64,000 bases of DNA from Halorubrum ruber (lineage in GTDB: Archaea; Halobacteriota; Halobacteria; Halobacteriales; Haloferacaceae), in the NCBI RefSeq assembly GCF_018228765.1, contig NZ_CP073695.1, positions 2,527,218-2,591,217 on the forward strand, written 5' to 3'. Position numbers and translations under genes: made by a program. The notes under the pieces are model-generated. The model did not search any database. It was given only the letters and a program-made list of their open reading frames with translations, and was not told the origin of the DNA. Of the stretch, positions 5,577-57,985 are shown one piece after another. Within the stretch, counting starts at the first letter, position 1. The number at the start of each line of letters is the position of its first letter.

Positions 5577-6172
5577 GGCTCTGTTGAACTCCTCCGTCGG
5601 TAACGCGTTTTGACCCGGGTTGCGGTCAATACAGACGTAGCGACGAGCGATTTCGGGAGTGGGTATCGCAGATCGGTAGCAGCGATTCGGTATTTAAGTA
5701 GTCGCCAGCGGCGGCGACGGCCGCTTATAAATAGCCGGCGGTGGCGCGCCTGCGAGCGGCCGGAGCGAAGCGGAGGCCGCGAGCCAGCCCGCGAGGGACG
5801 CGGTGAGCGCTCGAAGAGCGCGAACCGCGAGGCTGGGGAGGTGTGAGGCTGCGGTGCTGTGCGGAGTGGGTGGGGCTCAAAGGGGCAGCCGTCGAGGTGG
5901 GCGGAGGCGATGTAAGCACCGCAGGAACGAGCGAAGCGAGTGACGAGGAGCACAGCGAGCGTCCGCCCACCTCGACGGCTGGGGCTTTGGAGGCACTCGC
6001 CGCAGTAGCGTCAGTCACTTATAAACAGCTGACAGCAACACCGCGCTCCGATTTATAAACAACCACACTCACAACCTACGACACCTACTCCCGCAACCGA
6101 TCAAGAAGCACGCTTCAGTGAACCGCTGTTTCGGAGGAGGACCCATTTGAAGAACGGGATTTCACCAAAGCT
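5577..6172 (+). mobile_element. Class I repeat unit, copy 1 (596 bp, IS-like ends)
   Basis: Left end GGCTCTGTTGAACTCC; right end reads AGCTTTGGTGAAATCC on the other strand. Flanking 8-mers TCGATCCC (5569-5576) and TCGAACCC (6173-6180) match at 7 of 8 positions, as a target duplication would. Inside lies one core in + orientation (5740-5990): a hairpin whose arms are GCGGCC and GGCCGC, a second hairpin CGCTC-GAA-GAGCG closed by GCGGT/ACCGC, the box GGCTGGGGAGG (5831), CTCAAAGGGGCAGCC (5876), a 15-bp perfect stem (5891-5905 with 5962-5976) and GGCTGGGGCTTTGG. TTATAAAT boxes flank the core at 5725 and 6019. There is no transposase gene. It fills the gap between the small membrane protein and arginase. 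Confidence 0.75.
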
Positions 6173-7120: not shown

Positions 7121-8457
7121 ATCGCCTCGGGGTCAAGCCCCGAGGCTTCCCGTTTCCACGACGTGACTTGCAGACACGGACTCGAAGTGAGTCGTGTCCG
7201 TAGCGGTCACAGTCTCCACGGGCGTGTCTTCGGGCCATCCCAGCCCTAATTCAGAAAAGCCTCTCTGTAAGACGTTCATCGCCGCATTCGCGTCCCTGTC
7301 CGTCTCAAATCCACACGACGGACAGGAGTGTTCTCTGACCCAGATGGGTTTCGCTGTCTCCACACCGCACGACGCGCACTCTTTGGTCGTGCCTCTGGCT
7401 TCGACTTGAACGACGTGACAGCCGTACAACTCGGCTTTGTATTCGAGCAGGGTGATGAACTGTCGCCACGCCGCATCCCGCTTGTTTCGAGTGTTGTGCG
7501 ACTGTTCAAGCATCCCCTTCACGTTCAGGTCTTCGACGAATACAGCGTCGTACTCGCGGACGAGCCATGTCGTTATCTTGTGCTGGTAGTCCAGCACTTT
7601 CCGACGAATCCGACGCTTGACTTTGGCAACTTCAACTCGTTGTTTCTCGTAGCTGTTCGACCCCTTCTCCTTCCGGGATAACTTACGCTGTTCGCGTCCG
7701 AGTCGCTCGTAGTCGTCTTCGAGGTCGAGCCAATCCACGGTTTTGCCGTCGCTGGTGTGGATGTAGTTGAGGATTCCGAGGTCGATACCGACGCTGTTGC
7801 TCGCGTCCAGCGATTCCACGTCGGGTTTCTCGGGGAGATCGGCGTCGTCGGTTTCGAGGCCGAAAGAGACGAACCACTCGCCAGTCGTCTCCTTCTTGAA
7901 CGTGACCTCTTTGATCGTGGCGTGGTCGGGAATCGGGCGGTGGTAACGAATCTTCACCCAACCGATTTTGCTGAAACGGACGTAAGCGAACCTGTCTTGG
8001 CCCCTCTTTTCATCGAGGTCGAAACCAGACTGGTTGTACGTCACGCTTTGATAATCGGTGGGTGCTTGCCGTTTGAGCCGACCAACGTTGTATCCCTTCT
8101 CTTTCTTTTTGCGAAGGTTCGAGAGGTTCCGATAGAAGCGTGCGACGGTGGCTTGGGCGGCCTTCGAGTGTAGTTTACTGAAGACGGGCCACTTTCGCTT
8201 CCAGTCGGGAAGTTTGTTGTTCTGGTCGTACTCACTCGGCTTATTGTCCTCCGGGGCTTGTTCGTAGTCCCAGCGGACGTGGTTGTAGAGCTGACGATGA
8301 ACATCCAGATGGTGTTCCAGTCCAGCCGCTACCTCTTGTGTCGGGTAAGCGTGGTAGCGGTGACTGTGTTCCATCGCTGTCTATCGATTAGTGATGTGTT
8401 CATTTAGTGGTTTGTATCACGAGTTGTCGGCTTCATCCCCGAGGTCAACCCTCGGGG
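7121..8457 (-). mobile_element. IS1341-type (tnpB-only IS200/IS605 family) element
   Basis: A single intact tnpB on the - strand bounded by similar hairpins. At the 3' (right) end are GCCTCGGGG / CCCCGAGGC arms at 7124-7132 and 7138-7146 with a TCAAG loop. At the 5' (left) end are CCCCGAGG / CCTCGGGG arms at 8437-8444 and 8450-8457 with a TCAAC loop. No tnpA (Y1 transposase) is present, which defines the IS1341 group, so movement would need TnpA in trans. Exact element ends are estimated from the hairpins. There is no target duplication, as expected for this family. Confidence 0.75.
7133..8374 (-). CDS. tnpB: TnpB, RNA-guided nuclease of an IS1341-type element
   Basis: A full-length 413-residue TnpB. 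The RuvC-like triad looks intact: D198 in GIDLG, E281 in FVEDLNV, D361 in DRDANAA. The zinc ribbon C333/C336/C351/C354 is complete (CASC, CPSC). In this family the protein uses an omega RNA made from the 3' end of its own gene plus adjacent DNA as guide, cutting donor sites and promoting element retention. The stop codon lies in the loop of the right-end hairpin, as is common for these elements. G+C is clearly lower than in neighbouring genes (more AAG, AAC and GAA codons), consistent with recent transfer. Confidence 0.93.
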   Translation of the reverse strand: MEHSHRYHAYPTQEVAAGLEHHLDVHRQLYNHVRWDYEQAPEDNKPSEYDQNNKLPDWKRKWPVFSKLHSKAAQATVARFYRNLSNLRKKKEKGYNVGRLKRQAPTDYQSVTYNQSGFDLDEKRGQDRFAYVRFSKIGWVKIRYHRPIPDHATIKEVTFKKETTGEWFVSFGLETDDADLPEKPDVESLDASNSVGIDLGILNYIHTSDGKTVDWLDLEDDYERLGREQRKLSRKEKGSNSYEKQRVEVAKVKRRIRRKVLDYQHKITTWLVREYDAVFVEDLNVKGMLEQSHNTRNKRDAAWRQFITLLEYKAELYGCHVVQVEARGTTKECASCGVETAKPIWVREHSCPSCGFETDRDANAAMNVLQRGFSELGLGWPEDTPVETVTATDTTHFESVSASHVVETGSLGA

Positions 8458-16007: not shown

Positions 16008-16403
16008 CCAAATCCCAGTCGCTCACTTATAAATGGTTGGTGGCGGATCGGCGGCTGACACCGCCAAAGCCTCAGCCGCTCGTTTATAAATAACTGACCG
16101 CTGAACGGCGGCAAACTACTCCAAAGCCCCAGCCGCGAGGACTCGCGCGGCTCGCTGCGCTCCTCGCTCAGTCGCTGGCGCTCCTTCGCTGCGGTGCTTG
16201 CGTCACCGTGCGTCGTCCTCGCGACTGCCCCTTTGAGCCCCACCCCTCACAGCACCGCACCTCTCACCTCCCCACCCTCGTCGGGCGCGTCCATCGGGCT
16301 CCCTTCGGTCGCCCTCGGCGCGCCCGACTCCCTCGCGCGTGCTCCTCGCGGCCGCCTTCGGCGGCCACTCGGAGGCACGCGCCACCGCAGTTTTGTTTAT
16401 AAA
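16008..16403 (-). repeat. Class II repeat unit, copy 3, with 57-bp tail
   Basis: Core on the - strand at 16121-16386. P1 arms GCGCGTGC/GCACGCGC enclose a GGCCGCC/GGCGGCC hairpin. The second hairpin has 10-bp arms GTCGGGCGCG/CGCGCCCGAC, unlike copies 1, 2, 5 and 7. The middle box here is CTCAAAGGGGCAGTC, with one G-U pair replacing G-C. The tail is one 57-bp unit (16064-16120) and one of 56 bp (16008-16063), each carrying a CCAAAGCC-like box and TTATAAAT. A TTTATAAAT at 16395-16403 closes the mutL side. The stretch 15887-16007 holds nothing else I recognise. Confidence 0.75.
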
Positions 16404-27574: not shown

Positions 27575-27934
27575 TTTATAAATAGTCGGTCGCAGGTCGG
27601 CGGTGGAGTCCGCCAAAGCCCCAGTCGCTCGCTTATAAATCGTTGATTGCGGATCAGCGATGAACACCTCCAAAGCCCCAGCCGGGAGGCGGGCGCACGC
27701 TCGCTGCGCTCCTCGCTCAGTCGCTATCGCTCCTTCGCTGCGGTGCTTACGTCGCCTGCGCCCGCCTCCCGGCTGCCCCTTTGAGTCCCACCCCGCACAG
27801 CAACCGCACCTCACGCCTCCCCAGCCTCGTCAGCCGCCCTCCGCTTCGCTCCGGGCGGCTGACTCCCTCGCGGGCTCCTCGCGGCCGCCTCTGGCGGCCG
27901 CTCGGAGGCGCGCCACCGCGGTTCAGTTTATAAA
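27575..27934 (-). repeat. Class II repeat unit, copy 4, with 57-bp tail
   Basis: Core on the - strand at 27670-27917. Its second hairpin has arms GTCAGCCGCCC / GGGCGGCTGAC around the loop GGAGCGAAGCGGA. The third stem is a perfect 14-bp GGGAGGCGGGCGCA / TGCGCCCGCCTCCC. One full 57-bp tail unit lies at 27613-27669, with a partial second unit before it. TTTATAAAT at 27575-27583 and TTTATAAA at 27927-27934 bracket the unit. It occupies the convergent gap between the GNAT gene and rps3ae. Confidence 0.75.
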
Positions 27935-32992: not shown

Positions 32993-33587
32993 AGCTCTGT
33001 TGAAACCCTATTCTTCAGACACATTATCGTCTGGAACAGCCGCTCGCTGAAGAGTGCTTCTTGGTCGGTTTCGGGAGTGAGTTCCGCAGATCGGTAGCAG
33101 CGATTCGATATTTAAATAGTCGCCAGCGGCGCCGACGCCCGTTTATAAAAAGAGTGCGGTGGCGCGCCTGCGAGCGGCCGGAGCGAAGCGGAGGCCGCGA
33201 GCCAGCCCGCGAGGGACGCGGTGAGCGCTCGGAGAGCGCGAACCGCGAGGCTGGGGAGGCGTGAGGTGCGGTGCTGAGCGGTGCGGGGTGGGACTCAAAG
33301 GGGCAGCCGTCGAGGCGGGCGGAGGCGAAGTAAGCACCGCAGGAACGAGCAACGCGAGTGACGAGGAGCACAGCGAGCGTCCGCCCGCCTCGACGGCTGG
33401 GGCTTTGGAGGCACTCGCCGCAGTAGCGTCGACCATTTATAAACAGCCGACAGCAACACCGCGCTCTGGTTTATAAATAACCTCGCTCACAATGTACTAC
33501 ACCTACTCCCGAAATCGCTCGTCGCTACGTCTGTACTGAGCGATTGAGGGTGTGAAACTATCAGTCTCTGAGTATATCAACAAAGCC
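32993..33587 (+). mobile_element. Class I repeat unit, copy 5 (595 bp, IS-like ends)
   Basis: Left end AGCTCTGTTGAAACCC; right end on the other strand GGCTTTGTTGATATAC. Flanking 8-mers CTATAAAT (32985-32992) and TTATAAAT (33588-33595) match at 7 of 8. The core (33158-33408, + orientation) is the same length as in copy 1 and nearly identical, with GTCGAGGCGGGCGGA / TCCGCCCGCCTCGAC as its third stem. Compared with copy 1, the outer ~85 bp on the two sides are exchanged. No gene inside. Confidence 0.75.
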
Positions 33588-34006
33588 TTATAAATGGATG
33601 ATGGCGGATCAGCGGTGAACACCACCAACGTGCCAACCGATTTGGCATAAATGGTTGACTTCGGATCGACGGCGGACACCGCCAAAGCCCCAGCCGCTCG
33701 TTTATAAATAGTTGATTCTGGATCTGTGGCGAACACCGCCAAAGCCCCAGCCGCGAGGACTCGCGCGGCTCGCTGCGCGCTTCGGTCGCTCACTTCGTTC
33801 GCTCCCTACAGTGCTTACGTCGCCGTGCTTCGCCCTCGCGGCTGCCCCTTTGAGTCCCACCCCGCACCGCTCCGCACAGCACCTCTCACCTCCCCAGCCT
33901 CGTCAGTCGCCTCCGCTTCGCTCCGGCGACTGACTCCCTCGCGCGTGCTCCTCGCGGCCGCCGATGGCGGCCGCTCGCAGGCACGCGCCACCGCGTTCTT
34001 TTAAAT
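33588..34006 (-). repeat. Class II repeat unit, copy 6, with 57-bp tails
   Basis: Core on the - strand at 33739-33992. The second hairpin arms are GTCAGTCGCC/GGCGACTGAC around the GGAGCGAAGCGGA loop. Tail units of 57 bp lie at 33682-33738 and 33625-33681, with a degraded third unit up to the point where copy 5 ends. The 5' TATA-like box is TTTTAAATA instead of TTTATAAA. Copy 5 abuts or is inserted in this tail, at a TATAAAT site. Confidence 0.72.
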
Positions 34007-40508: not shown

Positions 40509-41111
40509 GGCTCTGTCGGAACCCCCACTTTTCAGATGAATTTCGTCGGAAACGGTCGGTCGCTGAAGAGTGCTTCTCGATCGGTTGCGGGAGTGAGTAT
40601 CGCAGATCGATGGCGACGAAACGGTATTTAAATAGCCGTGAGCGACAGCGATGAGCGCTTATAAATGGCAGGCGGTGGCGCGCCTGCGAGCGGCCGGAGC
40701 GAAGCGGAGGCCGCGAGCCAGCCCGCGAGGGACGCCGCGAACGCCCGAAGGGCGTGAGCGGCGAGGTTGGGGAGGCGTGAGGTGCGGTTGCCGTGCTGGG
40801 CGGGGCGGGACTCAAAGGGGCAGCCGCGAGGCCGACGTAGGCGACGCAAGCACTGGAAGGAGCGAACGAAGTGAGCGACTGAAGCGCGCAGCGAGCGTAC
40901 GTCGGCCTCGCGGCTGGGGCTTTGGGGACGTTCACCGCCGCAGCGTCGGTCACTTATAAATAGCCGACAGCAACACCGCGGTCCAGCTTATAAACAACCA
41001 CGCAATCACACTGAGCGACGTACTACACGTACTCCCGAAATCGCTCGTCGCTACCCCTGTACTGACCAGCGCCAGCTCAGAACGCGTCACCTGTGAGGGT
41101 TCGACGGAGCC
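40509..41111 (+). mobile_element. Class I repeat unit, copy 7 (603 bp, IS-like ends)
   Basis: Left end GGCTCTGTCGGAACCC, right end on the other strand GGCTCCGTCGAACCCT: well-matched inverted ends. No convincing 8-bp duplication remains. Core in + orientation at 40674-40925. Its second hairpin (GCCGC-GAA-CGCCC-GAA-GGGCG-TGA-GCGGC) differs at most paired positions from copies 1 and 5 yet still pairs. The third stem is GCGAGGCCGACGTA / TACGTCGGCCTCGC (14 bp). It sits between brp and the zinc-ribbon gene, in the middle of the phototrophy block. Confidence 0.75.
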
Positions 41112-53336: not shown

Positions 53337-53755
53337 TTATTTATAAGTGATTGGCCGCGACTGCTGCGACTATTTATAAGTGAATACGGTGCGGTGGCGC
53401 GTGCCTGCGAGCGGCCGGTAGGCCGCGAGCAGCACGCGCGAGGGAGTCGGGCGCGACGAGGGCGACCGAAGGGAGCCCGAAGACGCGCCCGACGAGGCTG
53501 GGGAGGCGTGAGGCGCGGTTGCGGTGCTGTGCGGGGTGGGACTCAAAGGGGCAGCCGTGAGGCGGGCGCAGGCGACGCAAGCACCGCAGGGAGCGAACGA
53601 AGTGAGCGACCGAGGAGCGCAGCGAGCGTGCGCCCGCCTCGCGGCTGGGGCTTTGGCGGTGTCCGTCGTCGATCCGCAGTCGATTATTTATAAGCGAGCG
53701 GCTGGGGCTTTGTAGGAATCCGCCACCGTGATGCCATCAACTACCACTTATAAAT
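53337..53755 (+). repeat. Class II repeat unit, copy 8, with 57-bp tail
   Basis: Core in + orientation at 53393-53656. P1 arms GCGCGTGC (53397) and GCACGCGC (53432) enclose GCGGCC-GGTA-GGCCGC. P2 is GTCGGGCGCG (53446) with CGCGCCCGAC (53484). The third stem GTGAGGCGGGCGCA / TGCGCCCGCCTCGC is nearly perfect. One 57-bp tail unit at 53657-53713 repeats GGCTGGGGCTTTGT. TATTTATAAG boxes lie on both sides. It separates aroD from the rhomboid gene. Confidence 0.75.
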
Positions 53756-53837: not shown

Positions 53838-54827
53838 ATGGCGACGTGCGACGTGTGTGGGGAGTACGAGAACCTCCCGTACCAGTGTAAGCGGTGCGGC
53901 CAGACGTTCTGCGCCGAACACCGACTGCCCGAGAACCACGACTGTCCGGGCCTCGCCGAGTGGGACGACCCCGGGGGCGTCTTCGACAGCGGCTTCGACG
54001 AGAGCGTTGAGGGCGGCGCGGGCGACGCCCGAACGGGCGGCGACGCGTCCGCGGGCGTCGTCGACCGCGTCAAACAGCGGGTCGACCGCGAGACCAGCAC
54101 GGGCGGCCTGATCAGTTACTTCCGAGGGAACGCGACGTACGCGATCCTCCTCGCAATCTGGGTCACGTTCCTCGCGCAGCTGGTCGTGTTCTGGGGCGTG
54201 AGCCCGGCGCTCCACGACCAGCTGTTCGTGCTCCGGGCGGACGAACTCGGTCGAGTCTGGACGTGGGTGACGTCCGTGCTCTCTCACTCGCCGGCCAGCC
54301 TCTACCACATCATCGGTAACAGCGTCGTGCTGTTCTTCTTCGGCCCGCTCGTCGAGCGCGCCGTGGGGTCGAAGCGCTTCGCCGCGTTCTTCTTCCTGTC
54401 GGGGATGATCGCGGGGCTCGGCCACATCCTGTTCGCGCTCGGCATGGGCGCCACGTCGACCGGCGTGTTGGGCGCCAGCGGCGCCGGCTTCGCGATCCTC
54501 GGCGTCCTCACCGTCTGGCGGCCGAACATGCAGGTCCTCCTCTTCTTCGTCATCCCGATGAAGATCAAGTACCTCACGTGGGGGATCGCGCTCGTCTCGG
54601 CGGTCCTCGTCGTCCAGAGCGTCCAGGCCGGCGGGGCGGGCAGCGCGGGCAACATCGCGCACCTCGCGCACCTGATCGGGTTCGCGATCGGCCTCGCGTT
54701 CGGCAAGCGCAACGAGGGGGTCGCGCGCTCCGCGGGCGGCATGGGCGGCGTCTCGATGGGCGGCGCGCGCGGCCCGCGCGGACCGGGCGGCCCCGGCGGC
54801 CCCGGCGGTCCGGGCGGGCGGCGCTAA
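53838..54827 (+). CDS. Rhomboid-family protease with N-terminal AN1-type zinc finger
   Basis: A 329-residue protein. Residues 1-40 are an AN1-like finger (CDVCGEYENLPYQCKRCGQTFCAEH). Residues ~90-300 form the six-helix rhomboid core: HIIGNSVVLFFFGPLVERAVG, the catalytic S214 in GASGAGF, and H278 in HLAHLIGFAIG. The last ~30 residues are a Gly/Pro/Arg repeat (RGPGGPGGPGG). It would cleave substrates within the membrane. The AN1 finger suggests coupling to ubiquitin-like or proteasome pathways, which is inference. Confidence 0.88.
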   Translation: MATCDVCGEYENLPYQCKRCGQTFCAEHRLPENHDCPGLAEWDDPGGVFDSGFDESVEGGAGDARTGGDASAGVVDRVKQRVDRETSTGGLISYFRGNATYAILLAIWVTFLAQLVVFWGVSPALHDQLFVLRADELGRVWTWVTSVLSHSPASLYHIIGNSVVLFFFGPLVERAVGSKRFAAFFFLSGMIAGLGHILFALGMGATSTGVLGASGAGFAILGVLTVWRPNMQVLLFFVIPMKIKYLTWGIALVSAVLVVQSVQAGGAGSAGNIAHLAHLIGFAIGLAFGKRNEGVARSAGGMGGVSMGGARGPRGPGGPGGPGGPGGRR

Positions 54828-57575: not shown

Positions 57576-57985
57576 TTTATAAATAAACAACGGCGCTGCG
57601 GCGAATGCCTCCGATTCCCCCAGCTGCTCGCTTATAAATAGTCGACTGCGGATCGACCGCGAACACCTCCAAAGCCTCAGCTGCTCGCTTATAAATAATC
57701 GACTACGGATCGACCGCGAACACCTCCAAAGCCCCAGCCGCGAGGACTCGATGGGCTCGCTGCGGTCCTCGTCGCTCACTACGTTCGCTCCTGCGGTCCT
57801 TGCGTCGCCCGTCTTCGTCCTCGCGGCTGCCCCTTTGAGTCCCGCCCAGCACAGCAACCACAGCCTCACACCTCCCCAGCCTCGCGGTTCGTTCGGAGCT
57901 CCCTGCGGTCGCCCCTCACTCACCGCGTCCCTCGCGCGTGCGACTCGCGGCCGCCGAGGGCGGCCGCTCGCCGGCACGCGCCACC
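57576..57985 (-). repeat. Class II repeat unit, copy 9, with 57-bp tails
   Basis: Core on the - strand at 57726-57985. P1 arms GCGCGTGC/GCACGCGC; the second stem is GCGGT/ACCGC around a longer, less regular loop; the third stem GCGAGGAC/GTCCTCGC is shorter than in other copies. The tail has one full 57-bp unit (57669-57725) and a degraded 58-bp unit (57611-57668) before a TTTATAAAT at 57576. The 5' TATA box is missing. It lies between the MBL and MinD-like genes. Confidence 0.72.

Follow-up and report, generated by a model that had tools for sequence, protein, structure and literature searches.

The window, a 64-kb stretch of the Halorubrum ruber chromosome, carries exactly eight copies of a hairpin core: a covariance model of the core scored them at 114.7-136.8 bits, and the next match reached 16.1 bits. 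It also holds a TnpB/IS1341-type gene (7133-8374, - strand), which has ~90%-identical relatives on other haloarchaeal plasmids, and an S15-Halobacteria ribosomal protein leader (Rfam RF03143; 30856-30926, - strand). In copy 1 the whole element is longer than its paired boxes, starting near 5739 and ending with a tail near 6060; comparison of copies placed a sharp end of flanking conservation at the CGG start of the head. The features, in window coordinates, are as follows.

5577-6172, + strand: MITE-like carrier of copy 1, ~600 nt, with degenerate ends (GGCTCTGTTGAAC; reverse complement, AGCTTTGGTGAAA)
5739-5867, + strand: 5' head, with a sharp start CGGTGGCGCG, two variable hairpins and then GAGGCTGGGGAGGTGTGAGG, from the head alignment
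5868-5877, + strand: GGGYGGG block GGGTGGGGCT, directly 5' of box 2, nearly invariant and with no pairing partner
5878-5890, + strand: box 2, CAAAG-GGG-CAGCC
5891-5976, + strand: variable stem, then 2-bp steps alternating with GA/GA mismatches (a ladder), and a small tip loop
5977-5989, + strand: box 3, GGCTG-GGG-CTTTG
5990-6060, + strand: tail with TTATAAA motifs
16118-16241, - strand: core copy by covariance model, CAGTC variant with a G-U pair
27667-27789, - strand: core copy by covariance model; three related species also have a copy at this site, with compensatory changes in the stem
33290-33411, + strand: core copy by covariance model, inside the MITE-like carrier 32993-33587
33736-33858, - strand: core copy by covariance model, converging on the 33290-33411 copy
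40807-40928, + strand: core copy by covariance model, inside the MITE-like carrier 40509-41111
53538-53659, + strand: core copy by covariance model, upstream of an AN1/rhomboid-type gene at 53838
57723-57843, - strand: core copy by covariance model

Copy 1 runs in the order CGGTGGCGCG, two variable hairpins, GAGGCTGGGGAGG, GGGYGGGACT, box 2, variable stem, box 3 and tail, and the core is ~112 nt long. The motif GGGACTGAAAG presumably resembles the 3' terminus of CRISPR repeats in haloarchaea, a likeness on which we make no claim. Tails of many copies consist of one to five or more 57-nt tandem units, each repeating box 3 and often including TTTATAA. Two tails in the same genome (L024 and L029) hold at least five identical 57-nt units 3' of box 3, a strong homogenisation within the tail, and the L029 units contain TTTATAA.

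A sequence-only reading of this stretch had proposed that box 2 and box 3 of copy 1 pair on the + strand on both sides of a symmetric GGG/GGG loop, and that the other copies do the same. We confirmed the box coordinates, and the pairing was borne out throughout the window, where all eight copies read CAAAG-GGG-CAG[C/T]C ... GGCTG-GGG-CTTTG. The CAGTC variant, at 16122-16235 of the - strand, does pair with GGCTG through one G-U, as had been suggested; the copy labelled third in that reading, under another numbering, is the second by coordinate order.

Both helices are maintained well beyond the window. Among 46 diverse cores, 96.8% of helix cells were paired and 12 of the 17 pairs had changed at both positions. 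For the two helices the covariation score was 0.321, above that of shuffled (0.100 +/- 0.010) and slid (at most 0.073) controls. The outer helix appears in different genera as CAAAG/CTTTG, GAAAG/CTTTC, CGAAG/CTTCG, GGAAG/CTTCC or AAAAG/CTTTT, and as CAAAC/GTTTG at locus L086. The folding energy of the core (-72.3 kcal/mol) lay far below that of shuffled sequences (-48.6 +/- 3.5; z -6.7). At the site orthologous to the 27667-27789 copy, the flanks drift among four species that all retain the hairpin, its stem having changed in a compensatory manner; conversion from other copies possibly contributes to this pattern. These comparisons demonstrate that both helices flanking the GGG/GGG loop covary, as predicted for a long hairpin formed by the G-rich + strand. 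The orthologue of this copy in genome G119 (L130) and locus L127 carry ~55-nt two-hairpin modules inserted in the core arms, in L130 in both arms.

The all-G loop is retained while the helices around it change. Cores were located by their inner motifs, without box information, and 142 of the 156 with a 5-bp/3x3/5-bp arrangement had GGG/GGG; most of the exceptions are chance arrangements chosen by the script, and some loci had originally been fetched through box patterns, so these counts are partly biased. The loop is also unchanged in loci fetched through a neighbouring protein, except that one side reads AGG in L091. The sequence-only reading had asked whether homologues lose one box freely; they do not, and the flanking pairs instead change together across genera. 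Because GGG/GGG is kept and the flanking pairs covary, its suggestion of a selected site at the loop is supported. The loop is not isolated, since the adjoining GGGYGGG is nearly as conserved: GGGNGGG lies upstream of box 2 in 52 of 54 cores from the same genome and in 79 of 91 others. The observation on the loop holds, and its interpretation is partly supported by these comparisons, with binding, tertiary contact and quadruplex formation as candidate mechanisms.

Together the GGGYGGG block and the two loop runs provide four G3 runs, compatible with a quadruplex-duplex module, in which the loop and GGGYGGG runs would form a G-quadruplex between the helices and serve as a DNA or RNA landmark. 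This idea overlaps the other readings; the K+-rich cytoplasm of haloarchaea would favour such a structure. Conservation of the four runs across the class argues for it, as does the finding that G4 sequences of Haloferax volcanii fold in vitro (PMC12873603); one run is missing in some copies, however, and ViennaRNA with its quadruplex option retained the plain hairpin, although a quadruplex-duplex hybrid lies beyond what that program can model. On balance we regard it as fairly unlikely.

Mispairs within the helices indicate which strand folds. Counted without selecting between mispair types, the G-rich + strand showed 50 G-T against 9 A-C mispairs (p 5e-8; 42 against 8 in distinct contexts), an excess of which strand-biased mutation could explain part. 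Such an excess of G-T over A-C means that the folded molecule is most likely the G-rich single strand. Minimum-energy folding under RNA rules recovered the GA ladder that covariation supports, and folding under DNA rules did not; this leans toward RNA, though the DNA rules are weakly parameterised for mismatches of this kind. A strand-specific ssDNA hairpin would fit the comparative evidence about as well as RNA.

The mispair asymmetry and the preserved mismatches also bear on whether the structure is selected at all. The homogenised tails imply that local copying takes place within a copy, and the many copies per genome would permit conversion between them, so that complementarity might be a mere by-product of templated quasi-palindrome correction or inter-copy gene conversion. 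Correction, however, would give GGG/CCC and paired GA/GA, but both mismatch types are kept class-wide (no kept core had GGG/CCC), and the G-T/A-C asymmetry likewise argues against this account, which we consider very improbable.

The family is both abundant and widespread. The 3.02-Mb chromosome of the host contains 157 exact copies of box 2 (77 forward and 80 reverse; none for the reversed control), and spacing and strand runs of the chromosomal copies showed no significant regularity. The window form of box 2 was present in 30 of 30 sampled genomes of the host genus, Halorubrum, and once each in two other genomes of the family; 15 other genomes held 3 to 89 copies. The covariance model of the core matched 183 of the 242 Halobacteria genomes and reached 61 of 74 genera. 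Haloarcula, Natrinema, Halobaculum, Haladaptatus, Halorussus and Natronococcus are among the named hits. In a sample of the phylum, core-model matches were confined to members of the same order. Plasmid records carry one to three copies each, exact patterns found no match in viral contigs, and blastn found none in phages.

Using genes predicted by a codon-usage script, we found that only 7 of 142 copies overlapped a gene, placing the family between genes; among the listed plasmid matches that fall in annotated records, none had an annotated feature beneath it. A role in cis regulation, as an mRNA leader, 3' UTR structure or terminator, would suit a stable intergenic hairpin, several copies of which lie shortly past a stop codon. 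Such a role implies a fixed gene orientation, but in tandem gene pairs 37 copies were co-oriented with the genes and 35 opposed, and divergent gaps were also occupied, making it scarcely credible. Head-to-head pairs of cores, common outside the host genus, occurred in 43 of 116 core-only sequences; in several loci (L136, L153, L166, L184 and others) the paired cores stand ~20-35 nt apart around a semi-conserved spacer, for example CCGGTTGGCCAGCCGG. The AN1/rhomboid-type gene locus of the 53538-53659 copy has a core in several other species as well. In genome G139 the site upstream of this gene (L065) retains the head and has lost the core, apparently through deletion between GGCTGGGGAGG and a similar box-3 sequence.

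The same data allow a structured ncRNA family to be weighed, in which many copies would be transcribed and the all-G loop would serve an RNP as a site of protein binding or tertiary contact. The one-strand mispair excess, the recovery of the covarying GA ladder by RNA rules and conserved in-stem motifs of RNA-like appearance (GACGYAAGCACYGSAG and GAGGAGCGCAGCGAG) are in its favour. Set against these, core-only copies have no upstream A+T peak at promoter distance, copies show no orientation bias towards neighbouring genes, more than 100 copies per genome would be unusual for an ncRNA gene, and the hairpin has no Rfam match. We therefore treat it as possible, if doubtful.

Three of the eight window copies lie inside ~600-nt MITE-like carriers with GGCTCTGTTGAAA-type ends; these carriers, with ends GGCTCTGTTG, are putative IS6-type MITEs. 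The carrier at 32993-33587 is bounded by TTATAAAT-like direct repeats and is absent from the related genome G100, and the 40807 copy is absent at the corresponding site in both G100 and G119. The carrier is dispensable, as none surrounds the other five window copies or those in other genera. No case was seen in which the hairpin by itself had been precisely gained or lost; empty sites involved an entire carrier or were blurred by divergence. A transposase of the Y1 type, which mobilises REPs, lies at 2904931 in the host genome, ~31 and ~37 kb from the closest exact copies, and none was found in G045 or G255, which hold 87 and 89 copies. Reverse transcription was ruled out as a copying route by the lack of any match to reverse transcriptase (PF00078, RVT_1) in seven genomes.

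The reading that we place first, with confidence somewhat short of even, is a REP/BIME-like, strand-specific intergenic hairpin repeat whose G-rich single strand, as ssDNA or RNA, would be recognised at the G module. A trans-acting protein would make this contact, copies retaining both fold and G module would be those copied or kept, and some copies may move as cargo of MITE-like elements. The analysis found no partner protein. A bolder version, which we judge distinctly unlikely, is a new class-wide module in which a conserved G-quadruplex between covarying helices, maintained at copy numbers from tens to hundreds per genome, would be bound by a haloarchaea-specific reader protein, such as an RNP or chromosome-organising factor suited to molar K+. 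Should the G module prove to be a quadruplex, the family would lend itself naturally to testing how quadruplexes function in a potassium-rich cytoplasm. More generally, its natural set of variants delimits the folding strand, the recognition module and a partner to look for.

Word and sequence-string searches of open-licence papers, and hence not proof of novelty, returned no description of the hairpin, and Rfam 15 gave no family match above gathering score, a permissive threshold adding only chance matches. The structure thus apparently represents an undescribed, Halobacteria-wide non-coding hairpin family, present in about three quarters of the sampled genomes at up to ~160 copies each. Its covarying helices, GA-mismatch ladder and small tip loop recall Rfam structured RNA classes. 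The seven genomes without PF00078 set it apart from SINE-like retroelements. It likewise differs from MITEs, as the hairpin itself has neither terminal inverted repeats nor a target duplication, whereas the carrier of three window copies does have such ends. Like the PATE, SMR and MITE elements of Haloquadratum walsbyi (PMC3119063), which are transposase-free haloarchaeal repeats, some palindromic and some within other elements, it lacks a transposase; unlike them it has no transposon terminal inverted repeat, encloses an all-G loop and is marked by deep covariation, a comparison of described properties rather than of the sequences themselves. Bacterial REP/BIME repeats are 20-40 nt long, with a GTAG-type 5' tetranucleotide and an associated Y1 transposase (PMC2817692). 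The haloarchaeal hairpin shares with them a copy number above 100 per genome, placement between genes, an imperfect palindrome and oppositely oriented pairs; it differs in having no adjacent Y1 transposase, a far longer core, 5' GGGYGGGACT and GGG/GGG in place of GTAG, and conservation across a whole class.
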